From Gemmatimonadota bacterium (lineage in GTDB: Bacteria; Gemmatimonadota; Gemmatimonadetes; Longimicrobiales; Gaopeijiaceae), in NCBI GenBank assembly GCA_026706635.1, contig JAPOYJ010000002.1, forward strand, positions 1 to 38,885: a stretch of 38,885 bases of DNA. The letters are read 5' to 3'. A program made the translations under genes and the position numbers. Below are positions 1-35,750 of this stretch, piece after piece. The notes under the pieces were generated by a model. The model was given only the letters and a program-made list of their open reading frames with translations, was not told where the DNA came from and made no database searches. Within the stretch, counting starts at the first letter, position 1. Each line of letters starts with the position of its first letter.

Positions 1-342
1 CTTCGCTCTGCGTTGCTCCTCGGACCAATAGCGCTGCGGCTATTGGCCCTTCGTCCCGTCTTGCCAGCGGAGCGCTTCGCCGCTCTCGGTGCTCGCGCGA
101 GTCCGCCCACGGACTGCCGCAGCCCGTGGACAGAACTCCCACGGCATTCGAGCGGCGGAGCATCCCCGCTGGACCGCTTCGCTCTGCGTTGCTCCTCGGA
201 CCAATAGCGCTGCGGCTATTGGCCCTTCGTCGCGCCTTGCCAGCGGGGCGCTTCGCCGGTCTCGGTGCTCGTCCGGGCCCGTCCACGGACCGCTGGCACT
301 TCGCCGCTCTCGGTGCTCGCGCGAGATTATCCGCGGACTGCT
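1..342. repeat. Cluster of foldback (MITE-like) elements, left copy cut by window edge
   Basis: Three pieces lie head to tail. The first (1 to about 117) starts inside an element. The second (about 118-294) is the cleanest complete copy. The third (about 298-342) is a single right arm. The complete copy starts GCAGCCCGTGGACA and ends GTCCACGGACCGC, which are inverted repeats of each other. Its arms also pair further in (CCCCGCTGG near 175 with CCAGCGGGG near 240). Its centre is a perfect hairpin, CCAATAGC-6 nt-GCTATTGG at 201-222, repeated at 25-46 in the first copy. Open frames across the block are frame-neutral shadows: the same repeat reads open in several frames and has no start signals. 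The same element recurs at seven other places in the window. Confidence 0.85.
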
Positions 343-4542: not shown

Positions 4543-4814
4543 GGGAAAGGGATCAGGACCTTTACCACATACTGAAGCGCGGCTATCGGCGCGTAACCAC
4601 GTTCGGCAATATCGAGGTATGGGCCAACCCTAAGGACCCCAGCGACTTCAGGGTGACCCACGCCAATCCGCCTCCTCCGCAGGAGGTAGTAGATGCCTGG
4701 ATCGAGGAGCTTGAACGGATGGAAGCCCCTAGCAGCCCGTGGACAATATCCCCCCGGCATTCGAACGGCGATGCATCCGCGCTGGCCGCTTCGCCTCGCC
4801 TGTCCACGCTGTAA
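4539..4814 (+). CDS. Small protein coupled to the HicB-like frame; possible toxin partner
   Basis: The ATG overlaps the upstream TGA (ATGA), implying translational coupling. The first 63 residues look like a genuine compact domain (LYHILKRGYRRVTTFGNIEV followed by WANPKDPSDFRVTHANPPPP) ending in a charged helix (VVDAWIEELERME). The remaining 28 residues (from APSSPWTISP) are encoded by the foldback element inserted at 4731, so the original C-terminus was replaced. It does not carry the usual HicA 'G-S-H-xx-[FY]' motif, so naming it HicA is not justified. The position after a HicB-like frame is the only functional hint. Inference: a degraded toxin-antitoxin-like pair. Confidence 0.45.
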   Translation: MRERDQDLYHILKRGYRRVTTFGNIEVWANPKDPSDFRVTHANPPPPQEVVDAWIEELERMEAPSSPWTISPRHSNGDASALAASPRLSTL

Positions 4815-4979
4815 AGCATACTTCACACTATGTAATGTCTGCTATACATTTTGCCACTCCAAGGCTGCGCTCTGCGTTGCTCCTCGGGCGAATAGCGCTG
4901 CTATTCCCCCTTCGTCGCGCCTTGCCAGCCCGGCGCCTCGCCGCTCTCGGTGCTCGGGCGGCTTTATCCACGGACTGCT
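4731..4979. repeat. Full-length foldback element with 39-bp internal module
   Basis: The element is bounded by AGCAGCCCGTGGACAA at the left and TTATCCACGGACTGCT at the right, imperfect inverted repeats of each other, with TA on each side (cTAgcag and ctgcTAg), as expected for a TA target duplication. Left-arm and right-arm blocks shared with the other copies are present (CTCTGCGTTGCTCCTCGG and CTTCGTCGCGCCTTGCCAG). The central stem is GAATAGC-GCT-GCTATTC at 4890-4906. The AT-rich 39-bp module lies in the left half. The element truncates and extends the small ORF to its left. Confidence 0.85.
4810..4848. repeat. 39-bp four-part TGTAA/TTACA module, copy 1
   Basis: Half-sites in order: TGTAA (4810), TCACA (4823), TGTAA (4831), ATACA (4844), with spacers of 8, 3 and 8 bases. 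The same 5-8-5-3-5-8-5 layout occurs at 23326-23364 and 26972-27010. The alternating inverted half-sites with fixed spacing look like a protein-binding array or a cruciform-forming segment. The role is unknown. Confidence 0.65.
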
Positions 4980-9654: not shown

Positions 9655-9710
9655 TCCAGCGGAGCGCTTCGCCGCCGTCGGTGCTTGCGCGAGATTGTCC
9701 ATGGGCTGCT
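9655..9710. repeat. Solo right arm of foldback element between CPBP and Ppx genes
   Basis: CCAGCGGAGCGCTTCGCC, then a CGGTGCT-type block and GCGCGAGATTGTCC, ending ATGGGCTGCTA. It matches the right arm of complete copies with scattered differences; no left arm is present. The terminal TAG is the stop codon of the CPBP gene, and the arm supplies the alternative upstream ATG of the phosphatase gene. Confidence 0.8.
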
Positions 9711-16843: not shown

Positions 16844-17692
16844 ATGAAGAGGACTTCGACGACGGCGATAGCGGCCCTGGCGGCGCTGGCCTGGCTGCCC
16901 GCATCGGTGCCAGCGAGCGGCCAGGAGACGACGGCCCAGGAGGTGCTCGAGGCGCTACGGCTGGGGGAGCGGGTGGAGAGTGCGCCGCGGTGGATGGATA
17001 TCAACACCCTCGCCTCCTTTTTCCTCCGCCAGGTGGACCCATCGTCGTTGATGTGCACGGAAGGAGAGGACAGGTGCAGGTTCGAGCCCGCCCCGCGCAC
17101 CTCGGTCGAGCTCGACGCCTTCGCCGACCAGGTGGCCGCGATCGCGGCCGACTCCACGCTCCCGGATCGCGTCCGGAGCAACGCCAGCTCCGCCCTGGCG
17201 AGCGCGGTGAGCCGCAGTCTAGGCAGGAGCAACGTGGGCACTCCGTACCCGCGCGCCTTCGATCTGCTGGTCCGGGTGTACGAGGGCGGCTACGACGATG
17301 CGCTGGACGACATCTGGCGGACCGATTCCCGCGCCTTCGACCTGCTGGTCCGGGTGTACGAGGGCGGCTACGAAGGTGCGCTGTACGACATCTGGCGGAC
17401 CGATTCCGTGCGAGGCCCGGCGTACGTGCGCGAAGTCTTCGAGCGGAGCGAGCGGCCGCCGCTGTGCCGGCGATACCGCCCGGTCCTACAGGAATGCGAC
17501 GGCTACGACTACTGGGACGACGCGCGCCCCACGCTGTTCTGCCGTGCGGGGATGATTCTGTTCGATGACATGGTGTCAGCAGCCCGCGAGCGGGCGCCCA
17601 GCGACCAGGTGTACGACCTCGCCGGAGTGCCGGACCCCATCCCCCCCGGTCTTCCGGAGCACGTGGAGGACCGGTACCGGCGCTGCCGCTAG
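16844..17692 (+). CDS. Secreted protein with internal 26-residue duplication
   Basis: A 282-residue protein of unknown family. Signal peptide MKRTSTTAIAALAALAW to about ASGQ. Residues 137-162 and 163-188 are a near-perfect tandem repeat (RAFDLLVRVYEGGY, then DIWRTDS), encoded by two 78-base units at 17252-17329 and 17330-17407 that differ at few positions, so the duplication is recent. The C-terminal part has four cysteines and a YDYWDDARPTLFCRAG stretch. The helical spacing before the repeat suggests a HEAT-like array, which is inference. GAGGAG lies 9 bases before the ATG. It follows the Cys-rich lipoprotein on the same strand by 144 bases and may share its transcript. Confidence 0.8.
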   Translation: MKRTSTTAIAALAALAWLPASVPASGQETTAQEVLEALRLGERVESAPRWMDINTLASFFLRQVDPSSLMCTEGEDRCRFEPAPRTSVELDAFADQVAAIAADSTLPDRVRSNASSALASAVSRSLGRSNVGTPYPRAFDLLVRVYEGGYDDALDDIWRTDSRAFDLLVRVYEGGYEGALYDIWRTDSVRGPAYVREVFERSERPPLCRRYRPVLQECDGYDYWDDARPTLFCRAGMILFDDMVSAARERAPSDQVYDLAGVPDPIPPGLPEHVEDRYRRCR

Positions 17693-19763: not shown

Positions 19764-19957
19764 CTGGCTCTCCTCTCCGCACGAAGGGAGGGAGACGCCA
19801 AGCCGACGGTGCGATCGGGCGCACTCGATGGTGCGCCGGCGCATATCCGCCCCGTTCCGTGACCGGGTACCGACGGCCTGCCTCACCCAGCCTCCCCGCG
19901 GAAGCTGTGTCAGCGCGAGGGCGAGGCGATGCCCGCCGCAGCGCAACGGTGACGGCC

Positions 19958-20155
19958 GGTGGTCACGTTTCCTGGCTCGAGGTTTGGTCCGCCTTCCCGG
20001 AGTGGCCAGCCCGCGGACGAGCTGCCACCCTAGTGGCTTCTTCGGACCTCCCGAGTCGCCTCGGAACCTCTGACAGTGGCGGGGCCGCGCCGGATTCTCA
20101 CCGGCTTCCGTGTCGTCCCCCGGCCTATTGTGTGGAAGGCCTCTACACTACCCAG
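19958..20155 (-). promoter_or_regulatory. Cobalamin riboswitch
   Basis: Reading the minus strand, the conserved core occurs in order: GGAAGCCGGTGAGAATCCGG, then CGCGGCCCCGCCACTGTC (the L5/P6 region), then GCCACTCCGGGAAGGCGGAC, then GAGCCAGGAAACGTGACC (B12 box). These match the AdoCbl-class riboswitch consensus in sequence, order and spacing. It lies about 195 bases before the start of the BtuB-like receptor, which it is expected to repress when cobalamin is abundant. The exact outer stem boundaries are estimated. Confidence 0.92.
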
Positions 20156-20189
20156 ACGAGGGGTGTCGGGCAAGCCTGCGGATCACCGC

Positions 20190-23247: not shown

Positions 23248-23671
23248 GCAGCCCGTGGACAAACCTCCCACGGCATTCGAGGCGCGCTGCATCCCCGCTG
23301 GACCGCTTCGCTCGCCCGTCCGTACTGTAATATATACTTTACAATGTGTAATTCACGGTTTACAACTACTGTATCCCTGACTTCGCTCTGTGTTGCTCCT
23401 TGGCCCGGTAGCGCTGCTACCAAGCCATGCGGCCCGCAGAATGCACCCTGGCGGCATTCGAGGGGCGCTGCATCCGTGCTGGATCGCCTTGCTCTGCGTT
23501 GCTTCTTGGGCGAATGGCTCCGCCATGCGCCCCGCAAAGCGCCTTGCCAGCCCGGCGCTTCGCCCCTCTCTGTGCTCGCCCGGGCGCATCCACGGACCGC
23601 CTCGTCGCGCCTTGCCAGCGGGGCGCTTCGCGCCTCTCGGTGCTCGCGCGAGATTATCCACGGACTGCTAC
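23248..23671. repeat. Composite foldback element (one inside another)
   Basis: The outer copy starts AGCAGCCCGTGGACAAACC (TA flank at 23245) and ends GAGATTATCCACGGACTGC with TA. Its first half holds the 39-bp module and a stem GGTAGC-GCT-GCTACC (23407-23421). A second element starts near 23435 and ends near 23600 (GCATCCACGGACCGCC); its stem is GGGCGaATGGC-TCC-GCCATgCGCCC (23508-23532). The outer right arm then resumes at TCGTCGCGCCTTGCCAGC. Two insertions therefore explain the 424 bases. No protein is encoded. It lies between the SDR at 23654, whose last codons it overlaps, and glyS. Confidence 0.85.
23326..23364. repeat. 39-bp four-part TGTAA/TTACA module, copy 2
   Basis: The most regular copy: TGTAA (23326), TTACA (23339), TGTAA (23347), TTACA (23360), with spacers of 8, 3 and 8 bases and all four half-sites exact. 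It is AT-rich against a strongly GC-rich background. Confidence 0.75.
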
Positions 23672-26878: not shown

Positions 26879-26944
26879 CCTGTGCCTCCTTGCTGGAGTC
26901 TCTGATTCAGTGAAGCCGATGCCCTGTCCAGGTTAGCGCGCCGC

Positions 26945-27040
26945 TGGACCCCCTCGCTCGCTCCTCCACAGTGTAATGTTTGCTTTACAATATGCAATCC
27001 ATAGTTTACAATTCCCATGTCCGTGGACAAGCCTCCCACA
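26945..27040. repeat. Rearranged foldback fragment with 39-bp module, copy 3
   Basis: It contains CGCTGGACCCCCTCGCTCGC (left-arm interior), the 39-bp module at 26972-27010 (TGTAA, TTACA, TGCAA, TTACA with spacers 8, 3, 8), then a left-end segment CCGTGGACAAGCCTCCCACA in an order unlike the complete copies. No right arm is recognised. It lies downstream of rpoC and upstream of the fused binding-protein gene; nothing else is seen in 26879-27050 apart from the GGAGG before that gene. Confidence 0.65.
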
Positions 27041-27050
27041 ACATCCGGCG

Positions 27051-31400
<4,350 letters not shown>

Positions 31401-31427
31401 CGTGTGGTTGCAGTGCTAGTTGTGCCC

Positions 31428-31473
31428 AGCAGTCCGTGGATAATCTCGCGCGAGCACCGAGAGCGGCGAAGCG
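31428..31473. repeat. Foldback-element arm in the rpoB-rpoC junction
   Basis: AGCAGTCCGTGGATAATCTC, then GCGCGAGCACCGAGAG and CGGCGAAGCG, is the exact consensus right arm (inverse orientation) of the foldback family. Only one arm is present. It occupies half of the 90 bases between rpoB and rpoC, so it is transcribed as part of the polymerase operon. Confidence 0.85.
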
Positions 31474-31490
31474 GGCCGCATCGTGTCTCC

Positions 31491-34400
31491 TCACTCTTCC
31501 CGGTTGAGCTCGACGGCCAGTCCCAGCGCCTGGAGCTCCTTGACGAGGACGTTGAAGGACTCGGGAATCCCGGGCTTCGGCAGGTTCTCGCCCTTCACGA
31601 TCGCTTCGTAGACCTTGGAGCGTCCCGTCACGTCGTCGGACTTGACGGTGAGGATCTCTTGCAGCGTGTGCGCCGCCCCGTAGGCCTCGAGCGCCCACAC
31701 CTCCATCTCGCCGAAGCGCTGACCGCCGAACTGCGCCTTGCCCGCGAGCGGCTGCTGCGTCACGAGCGAGTAGGGGCCGATGCTGCGTGCGTGGATCTTG
31801 TCGTCGACGAGGTGGGAGAGCTTGAGGACGTAGATGACGCCGACTGTGATGGGGAAGCGGAAGCGCTTCCCGCTCCGTCCGTCCCGGAGCCAGATCTTGC
31901 CGTTGGAGAGTATGTCGGCGGCTGCCAGGAGCTCCTGCACCGAAGCCTCCAGGCTGGCCCCCTTATTGCCCTTCGCAAGTGCGTGGACAGCCGGAAAGAC
32001 GTCGTCTAGCGGACGGCCTCGCTTCTCGGCCACCCACCTGGCGGCCCCGACTACGAAGTCGCCCAGCGCTTCGAGGACCCCGTGCGCCTCCTCGCCAGCC
32101 CACGGCGCCAGGTAGTCGTCGAGCGACTTCCCGATCCCGACCCCGGCGGCATCCGAGATGGACGTGCCCGAGCTCCCGTTTCCGGAGCTCCCGTTGTCCG
32201 ATACCGAGGCGCTGCGAATCTGGCCCGTCTCCGGGTGCAGATCGGCCGCGCGCAGGAGGCGCTCGTAGTGAAGCGTCTCGAAGGGCCACTCGACGTCCGC
32301 CTGCAGCGTCGCCGCCGCCCACCTCGCCCCCGCCAGCTTCAGGAGGATCGAGATCTCGTCCTCGGAAGCCCCCTGGAAAACGGGCGTCTTGGCCCCGAAA
32401 CCCAGGTTCTCGGCTGCCCACCCCAGGTGGGTCTCCAGGATCTGGCCCACATTCATGCGGGACGGCACGCCGAGCGGGTTGAGGACGATGTCGACCGCCG
32501 ACCCATCCGGGAGGAAGGGCATGTCCTCCTGCGGCGCGATCCGCGCGATGATTCCCTTGTTGCCGTGGCGGCCAGCCATCTTGTCGCCGACCGAGATCTT
32601 CCGCTTCTCGGCCACGTAGACCTTGACGAGCTGCACCACGCCCGGCGGGAGCTCGTCGGGCTGGAACACCTTGTCGATCTGCTCCTCGGTGCGCTCGCGG
32701 ACGCGCTCGGTGCGCCGCTTGGCCTCCCGGACGAGCGCCTGGATCTTCTCGTTGACCTTCGGGTCCTGCACCTTGAGTCGCGAGAGGTCGATCTCCGACA
32801 GGCTCACCCCGCGCAGCACCCTGGCGCTGATCCTCGTGCCCTCCTCGAAGAAGGGCTCGACCGTGCCCCGCTTCAGGCAGAGTGCGATCGTCTGGTTGCG
32901 CGGGCGCGTGAGGAGCACCCGCAGCTCCTCGTCGCGCGCCCCGATGATGCGGCGGATCTCGTCGCGCTCCTCGTTCCTGAGCTCGCCGATGCGGGCACCG
33001 TGCTCCCGTTCCAGCAGAGGGTCGTCTATCCGGCGCGAGAATATCTTGACGTCGATGACCGTCCCGACCATCCCCGGCGACATGCGGAGCGACGAGTCCT
33101 TCACGTCCTTGGCCTTCTCTCCGAAGATCGAGGTCAGCAGCTTCTCCTCCGGCGAGAGCTCGGTCTCGCCCTTCGGCGTGATCTTGCCGCATAGGATGTC
33201 GCCGCTCTTGACGCGGGCGCCGACGCGCACAATCCCGCGCTCGTCCAGATCCACAAGGCTTTCCTCGGCCACGTTCGGAAGCTCGCGCGTGATCTCCTCC
33301 ATCCCGCGCTTCGTGTCCCGGACGTGCAGCTCGAGCTCCTGGATGTGGATCGAGGTGAAGATGTCGTCCCGAACGAGACGCTCCGAAACGACGATCGCGT
33401 CCTCGAAGTTGTGGCCGTACCAGGGCATGAAGGCGACGCGAACGTTGCGTCCGAGCGCGAGCTCGCTCCGGTCGGTCGAGGGTCCGTCGGCGATGATGTC
33501 GCCCTTCCTGACCCGCGCCCCCGACCTGACCAGCGGACGCTGGTTGATGGCGGTGTCCTGGTTGGTCCGCCAGAACTTCTTGAGCCGGTAGCGGTCGAAC
33601 TGGGCCAGCTTGGCGAGGGGCCTGCGGGCGGCCTTCTTCTCGACGCCCTTGTCCACGACGATCTCGTCGGCGGTGACGCGCACCACCTTCCCGTCCCGCC
33701 GGGCGACGACGACGGCGCCGGAGTCCCGCGCGACCTTCTCCTCGAGTCCGGTGCCGACAAGCGGCGAATCGGTGTAGAGGAGCGGCACACCCTGACGCTG
33801 CATGTTGGAGCCCATCAGCGCCCGGTTGGCGTCGTCGTGCTCCAGGAAGGGAATCATCGCCGCGGCGACCGAGACCAGCTGGTCGGGAGCGACGTCGATG
33901 TAGTCGATATCCTCCGGCCTCTCGAGGGGGAAGTCGCCCCGGCGGCGGCAGAGGACGTACTCGTTCTGGAACGATCCATCGGGGTTCAGCGGTGCGTTCG
34001 CCTGCGCGATCGTCGCCTCCTGCTCCTCGTTGGCCGAGAGCCAGCCGATCTCGTCGGTCACCCTTCCCTCGACTACCCTTCGGTACGGCGTCTCGACAAA
34101 GCCCAGATCGTTTACGCGCGCATACGTCGTGAGCGAGGTGATCAGACCGATGTTGGGGCCCTCGGGCGTCTCGATCGGACACATGCGCCCGTAGTGCGAG
34201 TAGTGCACGTCGCGCACCTCGAAGCCGGCCCGTTCGCGAGTCAGCCCCCCCGGCCCGAGCGCAGAGAGGCGCCGCTTGTGGGTGAGCTCGGCCAGAGGGT
34301 TGGTTTGGTCCATGAACTGGCTGAGCTGCGACGACCCGAAGAAGGCCTGGATGACCGCCGACACGGTGCGCGCATTCACCAGATCGTCGATGTTCACCTT

Positions 34401-35750
34401 CTTGGGGTCGTTGCTGATCGACATGCGCTCGCGCACCAGCCTGGCCATCCGCGAAAGGCCGACCGAGAGCTGGTTGGCGATGAGCTCGCCCACGGTGCGC
34501 ACGCGCCGGTTCCCCAGGTGGTCGATGTCGTCGATTCGGCCCCTGCCCTCGCTGAGCTCGATCAGGTACCTGACGATCTCGACGAAGTCCTCCTTGGTGA
34601 GCACAGTCTCGGTGGCGGGGATGTCGAGCCCCAGCCGCTGGTTGATCTTGTATCGGCCGACGCGTCCCAGGTCGTAGCGCTGCGGATCGAAGAAGACCTG
34701 CTCGAGCGCCCTGCGCGCCGTGCGCAGGTTGGGGGCCTCACCCGGACGGAGGAGCGAGTAGATGGCGTTCAGCGCCTCCTCCTCGTTCTCGGTCGGGTCC
34801 TTCGCTATGGTGTTCTTGACTATCGGGCTCTCGCCCGGACGCCCGCCCTTGGCCTCGGGGGCCGACCTGAAGAGCTGAACCTCCTTGCAGCCCAGGCGCT
34901 GGAGAAGCCTGACCGAGTCCTTGTCGAGCTCCGCTCCGACCTCGAGCACCACCTCGCCGGTCTCCGTGTCCACGACCTCCTCGGCGACGACGGCGCCGAG
35001 GACCGATCGCTCGTCCTCCTCCTCATCGGGGACCACAGCCGGCCTGGACTCGAAGAAGAGCCGGTAGATGTCGGCGTCCGAGCCGTACCCGAAGGCGCGC
35101 AGCAGAGCCGACGCCGGGAACTTCTTCTTCTTGTCGATGTGGACGTAGCAGATGTCGTTGATGTCGATCGTGAACTCGACCCACGACCCCCTGAAGGGGA
35201 TAATCCGGGCGCTGTTCAGGCGGGCGCCGTTCGGGTGCACCTCCTCCTCGAAGACCACGCCCGGAGAGCGGTGCAGCTGGCTCACCACGACCCGCTCAGC
35301 CCCGTTGATGACGAAGGTCCCCAGGTGCGTCAGCAACGGCAGGTCGCCCAGGTAGACATCCTTCTCGACGGTCTCCCGCAGCCGCCTCTTCTTGCCCTTG
35401 CCCTCGTAGAAGCCGAGACGCAGCATCGCCTTGAGGGGCGAAGCATACGTCATGTCGCGTTCGATGCACTCCTCGACCGAGTACTTCGGCTCGCCCAGGG
35501 CGGAGGAGACGTACTCGAGCTCGCCATTCGTGTCCTTGATGGGAAAGATGTCCTCGAAGATGCCGTCAAGGGAGAACTCCCACCCCTCCGAGTCGGCGGG
35601 GCCGCGCTTCACGAGCTTCCCGAAGGAGCGCGTCTGGACGTCAAGCAGGTCGGGCATCGGCATCGCCGCGCGCAGCTTGCCGAAACTGACGGCCGGGCGG
35701 GTGCCCTCTATCGCGCCGGTGGGCTGGACGGCGCCGTTCTCACTAGGCAA
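31491..35750 (-). CDS. rpoB: DNA-directed RNA polymerase beta subunit, with unusual C-terminal-region insertion
   Basis: A 1419-residue protein, longer than E. coli RpoB (1342). The rifampicin region reads [20 protein letters not shown] followed by [13 protein letters not shown], with the residues expected of a sensitive enzyme. Conserved C-terminal elements include [11 protein letters not shown]-type [20 protein letters not shown]. Between LLKLAG (about residue 1138) and GKIWLRDGR (about 1280) lie about 140 residues where E. coli has about 15. The insertion includes a Ser/Gly/Asn-rich linker ([13 protein letters not shown]) and helical segments. TTG start with GGGAG 9 bases upstream. Part of the rplKAJL-rpoBC operon. 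Confidence 0.97.

Follow-up and report, generated by a model that had tools for sequence, protein, structure and literature searches.

A young, truncated MITE-like copy in the rpoB-rpoC spacer of a Gemmatimonadota bacterium is probably a tolerated passenger

Does the repeat that lies between rpoB and rpoC in this Gemmatimonadota genome act on rpoC, or is it simply carried along in the message? A sequence-only reading of the window (the whole analysed stretch of 38,885 nucleotides) had described a foldback arm in this spacer, recent or kept, and had called mobile repeats rare at such a place. We analysed the locus in its own genome (G000, 2.81 Mb) and in relatives, which carry the other G numbers. 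By RpoC, the named relatives are Gemmatimonadota/Longimicrobiales metagenome genomes, several of them with bin names like RHO1 and RHO3; a sponge origin of these relatives is our reading of the bin names. The junction holds the following features.

31491..35750, minus strand: rpoB, with its stop codon TGA at 31493-31491
31429..31479, minus strand: truncated copy of the MITE, its right end in the sense of the rpoC mRNA
31429..31442, plus strand: right terminal inverted repeat (TIR), GCAGTCCGTGGATA
31414..31431, minus strand: predicted rpoC-leader hairpin TGCTGG-GCACAA-CTAGCA, whose columns and loop match a covarying hairpin in relatives
31397..31402, minus strand: Shine-Dalgarno (SD)-like motif CGGTGG, which many relatives conserve, 8 nt ahead of the ATG
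31386..31388, minus strand: rpoC start codon ATG (MIDFPR...), conserved in the genus and in Gemmatimonadota loci
27051..31388, minus strand: rpoC

The repeat is indeed at the claimed place, as 31429-31473 (45 nt) shows 100% identity to the right end of the 175-bp MITE consensus of its own genome, a match far beyond chance. To the left of this exact match, a GCGG match with two mismatches may carry the copy to 31479. These last bases (31474-31479) form a degenerate GCGGCC that is either mismatched internal MITE sequence or belongs to 8 nt left over from the left TIR (GCGGCCCG) and joined to the right end, in which case the copy would be an internal-deletion derivative. In mRNA sense, the rpoB TGA is followed by GGAGACACGAT, the copy (GCGGCCCGCTTCGCCGCTCTCGGTGCTCGCGCGAGATTATCCACGGACTGC, 31479-31429), TGGGCACAACTAGCACTGCAACCACACGGTGGCCAACGAC and the rpoC ATG. 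The copy is flanked by AT on the left and TG on the right, and since there is no clear target duplication, truncation or later deletion must be assumed. The term foldback arm proved loose, because the two MITE ends are complementary over only ~14 bp and the copy is a single end from which most of the MITE is missing.

The family to which this end belongs is a MITE, that is, a non-autonomous DNA transposon: it has copies of defined length with TIRs, a 2-bp target-site duplication and no transposase of its own, since full copies (≤~250 bp) are too short for one. Full copies come in two sizes, 247 bp and 172-175 bp, the latter without an internal AT-rich module of ~75 bp, and are bounded by TIRs of ~14 bp, GCAGYCCGTGGAYA at the start of the copy and its inverse at the end. 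Among 40 full-length TIR pairs, mostly of 247, 172 or 175 bp, 14 had identical 2-bp flanks, and TA was the commonest flank on each side. Nested copies duplicate TT (filled site GGCCCTT-element-TTCGTCG versus empty site GGCCCTTCGTCG), and TA+TIR ends (≤1 mismatch) numbered 311 in the own genome versus 0 for a reversed control pattern. The own-genome repeat search gave at least 47 matches at E≤1e-3, with 40 of 264 first-look candidates scored. Members were found in every genome searched within the genus (23/23) and in two of 12 other genomes searched from the same family (G030 and G033); one genome further away (G051) gave a weak match. Loose first-look candidates were most numerous in G000 (448), G014 (389) and G003 (213), and ranged from 51 to 179 in the other genomes; the three highest counts suggest a recent expansion. 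A literature search found no paper on Gemmatimonadota MITEs beyond passing co-mention.

Several arrangements of copies stood out in G021. Head-to-tail arrays of three copies each (L162, 5450-6194; L169, 353-872) have a CC dinucleotide between copies, suggesting repeated insertion at, or replication of, a MITE end. Two further copies (L158, 498-744; L159, from 545) follow the same CGAATA flank, which in L158 is the end of tuf, whose stop codon TAG consists of the TA target and the G that opens the TIR; in L159 the copy may lie at a second tuf gene.

IS630-type transposase loci are present in the own genome, and the TA preference of the MITE fits IS630. Inspection of the IS630-type loci and long TIR pairs identified neither an IS630 carrying these TIRs nor any other transposase or autonomous partner whose ends match; we therefore infer mobility from the structure of the copies. 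The MITE ends near the IS630-type loci either face away from the gene or are parts of separate copies. At L154 (1399-2529, G000 contig C13), the 3′ end of an IS630-type transposase gene runs into a MITE terminus and a second terminus lies upstream, both facing away from the gene; the locus may represent an IS that was interrupted. At L155 the copy is fragmentary and located within a nested MITE. The other long TIR pairs span host genes, among them one of 2,880 bp on C13. The TIR pairs of G021 yielded no transposase candidate, a result that for L159 and L160 rests on a listing of their ORFs.

If the family is this abundant, is a copy between rpoB and rpoC exceptional? Besides the junction, the window contains a remnant directly after rpoC and four other copies or clusters.

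26941..27026, no strand assigned: second MITE remnant, directly after rpoC
1..341, plus strand: cluster of head-to-tail copies, of which 119-293 is a complete 175-bp element
4732..4978, plus strand: full-length 247-bp copy with TA flanks on both sides
9656..9709, plus strand: right-end MITE fragment
23248..23668, plus strand: cluster of MITE copies between two genes

Across 439 kb sampled from the own genome, 79 merged copies occupied 57 of 312 spacers (~18%), including 36 of 195 co-directional ones, a crude estimate that rests on simple GC3-based gene models. At that level the rpoB-rpoC copy is unremarkable, the chance of one there being about as high. Further copies occur upstream of rpsJ (G000 and G021) and between rplC and rplD, at the equivalent place after rplC (G012, G007, G021 and G003), and the rpoB-rpoC gap itself is occupied in three relatives. 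MITE insertions in the spacers of essential operons are thus ordinary within the genus, and the claim of rarity does not hold. At window 17252-17407, two directly adjacent repeat units of 78 bp, 95% identical, lie within a predicted reading frame.

We then compared the same spacer across relatives. Copies were present in 3 of 20 (G014, L062; G003, L063; G021, L068), at positions other than that of G000, and the G000 position was unoccupied in relatives. In its sequence part, the comparison with sister genomes that the sequence-only reading had proposed therefore found the arm absent at this position. The G021 copy (nearly complete) and the G014 copy (near-complete) both separate the conserved GGTGG motif from the rpoC ATG, and in G018, the closest relative of G021, the spacer is empty with similar flanks. 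The G003 copy has lost its left part, has replaced the region and ends at the same junction as that of G014 (TGAAC-ATG), so these two may represent one shared event. Since the G000 copy lies upstream of GGTGG, it is most simply a separate event; one ancestral insertion for all four was rejected on these positions and on the empty spacer of G018. Short TIR-like palindromes in the spacers of G001, G004, G016 and G019 may be older MITE remnants. Across the phylum, the length of this spacer ranges from 0 to ~310 nt. The view of the copy as recent is supported.

One explanation holds that rpoC starts at GTG 31400, a weak start regulated by the arm, and the frame from this GTG is indeed open and in frame. 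The ATG at 31388-31386, however, is the aligned start (MIDFP) in 21 of 21 genus members read and in other Gemmatimonadota, several with spacers of only 0-9 nt, and the GTG falls within the conserved SD-like CGGTGG, 8 nt before that ATG. We consider a GTG start hardly credible, and the sequence-only reading, which had rpoC beginning with GTG and lacking a strong SD, erred here. It follows from the ATG start that the gap is 102 nt (31389-31490) rather than the 90 bases that had been counted. Assuming a standard anti-SD, the predicted pairing energy of CGGTGG in G000 is -6.5 kcal/mol, relatives without an insert range from -5.8 to -12.1, and in G014, G003 and G021, where the MITE has displaced the motif, the best value is only -3.2 to -3.3, from the CGGA of the TIR itself.

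The copy could alternatively regulate rpoC at the transcript level, as an RNase III site, as an attenuator or by sequestering the initiation region, in the manner demonstrated for the Correia elements of Neisseria. MITE transcripts can serve as RNase III sites (PMC10969869, PMC2229807), and a 5-bp hairpin internal to the MITE (GCGGC/GCCGC) is predicted with a probability of 0.92. Yet neither the spacer RNA (z +0.69) nor that of the element (z +1.22) folds better than its dinucleotide shuffles, and a search for terminators and promoter-like sites found none. In-silico deletion of the MITE changed accessibility little (SD, 0.33 to 0.31; start, 0.62 to 0.65), and shuffled inserts left both sites less accessible than the actual MITE did. 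Moreover, nearly all of the opposite MITE end is gone, so a long stem of the Correia type cannot form. Such regulation thus appears improbable, and the structural effect on rpoC initiation that had been proposed is not borne out by folding or accessibility. Rfam returned no family match to the repeat above the gathering score; its sole match in the window was a cobalamin riboswitch elsewhere (19944-20159, minus strand; RF00174, 53.8 bits).

One structural contact of the MITE is possible according to the predicted fold. Ten relatives, about half of the genus, share a covarying hairpin of 8 bp, closed by a loop of 6 nt, directly upstream of the rpoC SD (window 31389-31431; relatives L054-L057, L062, L065 and L068-L071). 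The G000 leader hairpin aligns to the same columns and likewise has a 6-nt loop (pair probabilities of 0.79-0.98). The outer bases of its 5′ arm, TGC (31431-31429), are those with which the MITE ends; the MITE would thereby supply half of that arm and take part in three pairs. This is suggestive only that the MITE end forms part of the leader hairpin in G000. It raises the explanation that the terminus was accidentally built into a regulatory leader hairpin of rpoC, located 11 nt ahead of the SD, and that this hairpin keeps the copy in this species for a role in initiation spacing, mRNA processing or mRNA stability. Consistent with this, double changes occur in 6 of 8 pairs with G000 included (0 of 500 shuffles reach the score), slid registers fail the covariation test, and random sequence forms the hairpin at only ~3-8% (the observed pair probability is reached in 2.75% of shuffles of the element, and a mean of 0.75 in 7.5%). 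Three matching bases are little, however, and the covariation is modest without G000 (3 of 8 pairs; 1 of 500 shuffles on the covariation score). The hairpin is also dispensable, because it is absent in G003 and in nine relatives whose spacers measure 19-27 nt, and in G014 and G021 the MITE separates it from the start codon. While less improbable than transcript-level regulation, co-option of this kind is unlikely. In other genera, spacers of ≥37 nt often carry CACCC...GGGTG-like hairpins at the same place.

Comparison with known repeats places the family among short, non-coding, mostly intergenic elements. REP sequences are dispersed and transcribed in operon spacers, and have neither TIRs nor target duplications. 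REP/ERIC-type repeats thus resemble the present family in their dispersal and transcription within operon spacers, whereas full copies here have TIRs and target duplications. The family also resembles RUP of Streptococcus pneumoniae and Correia/NEMIS of Neisseria, which are likewise short, non-coding, high-copy and mostly intergenic, with short TIRs and TA termini. RUP is tied to IS630-Spn1 (PMC2229807), whereas here no mobilising IS was identified. Correia elements fall into size classes of 107 and 155 bp that differ by an internal module (PMC2229807), as the 172-175 and 247-bp classes do here. An IHF site and RNase III processing are described for Correia (PMC2229807), and unlike Correia, the rpoB-rpoC copy has one end and no long TIR stem. 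The Chunjie MITE of Geobacter uraniireducens, as cited in PMC10969869, is similar in size (178-235 bp), has many partial copies and, by the title of its paper, is inserted in an operon with the structure undisturbed; on that citation it differs in organism and sequence, and in lying in a phosphate-uptake operon rather than rpoBC.

Together, these results are best explained by a young, truncated or internally deleted MITE-like copy that is, with good probability, a tolerated passenger in the rpoBC mRNA. A MITE would have inserted between rpoB and rpoC, ahead of the rpoC ribosome-binding site, would have been internally deleted or truncated, and would now be transcribed as a passenger, leaving the rpoC start codon and SD-like motif intact downstream. 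It would have no selected role, and the spacer presumably accepts it since rpoC has an SD of its own for initiation. Tolerance, which the sequence-only reading had offered as one option, is supported by these intact signals and by the independent hits on the same spacer in relatives. Against a passenger, the clean right-end sequence is also the outcome expected under selection.

The findings indicate that in this genus a MITE family of high copy number can enter even the spacers of rpoB-rpoC and of ribosomal-protein operons. The conserved hairpin of the rpoC leader offers a minor lead of its own, and the relatives in which a MITE lies between the rpoC SD-like motif and the start codon constitute natural experiments in the translation initiation of an essential gene.
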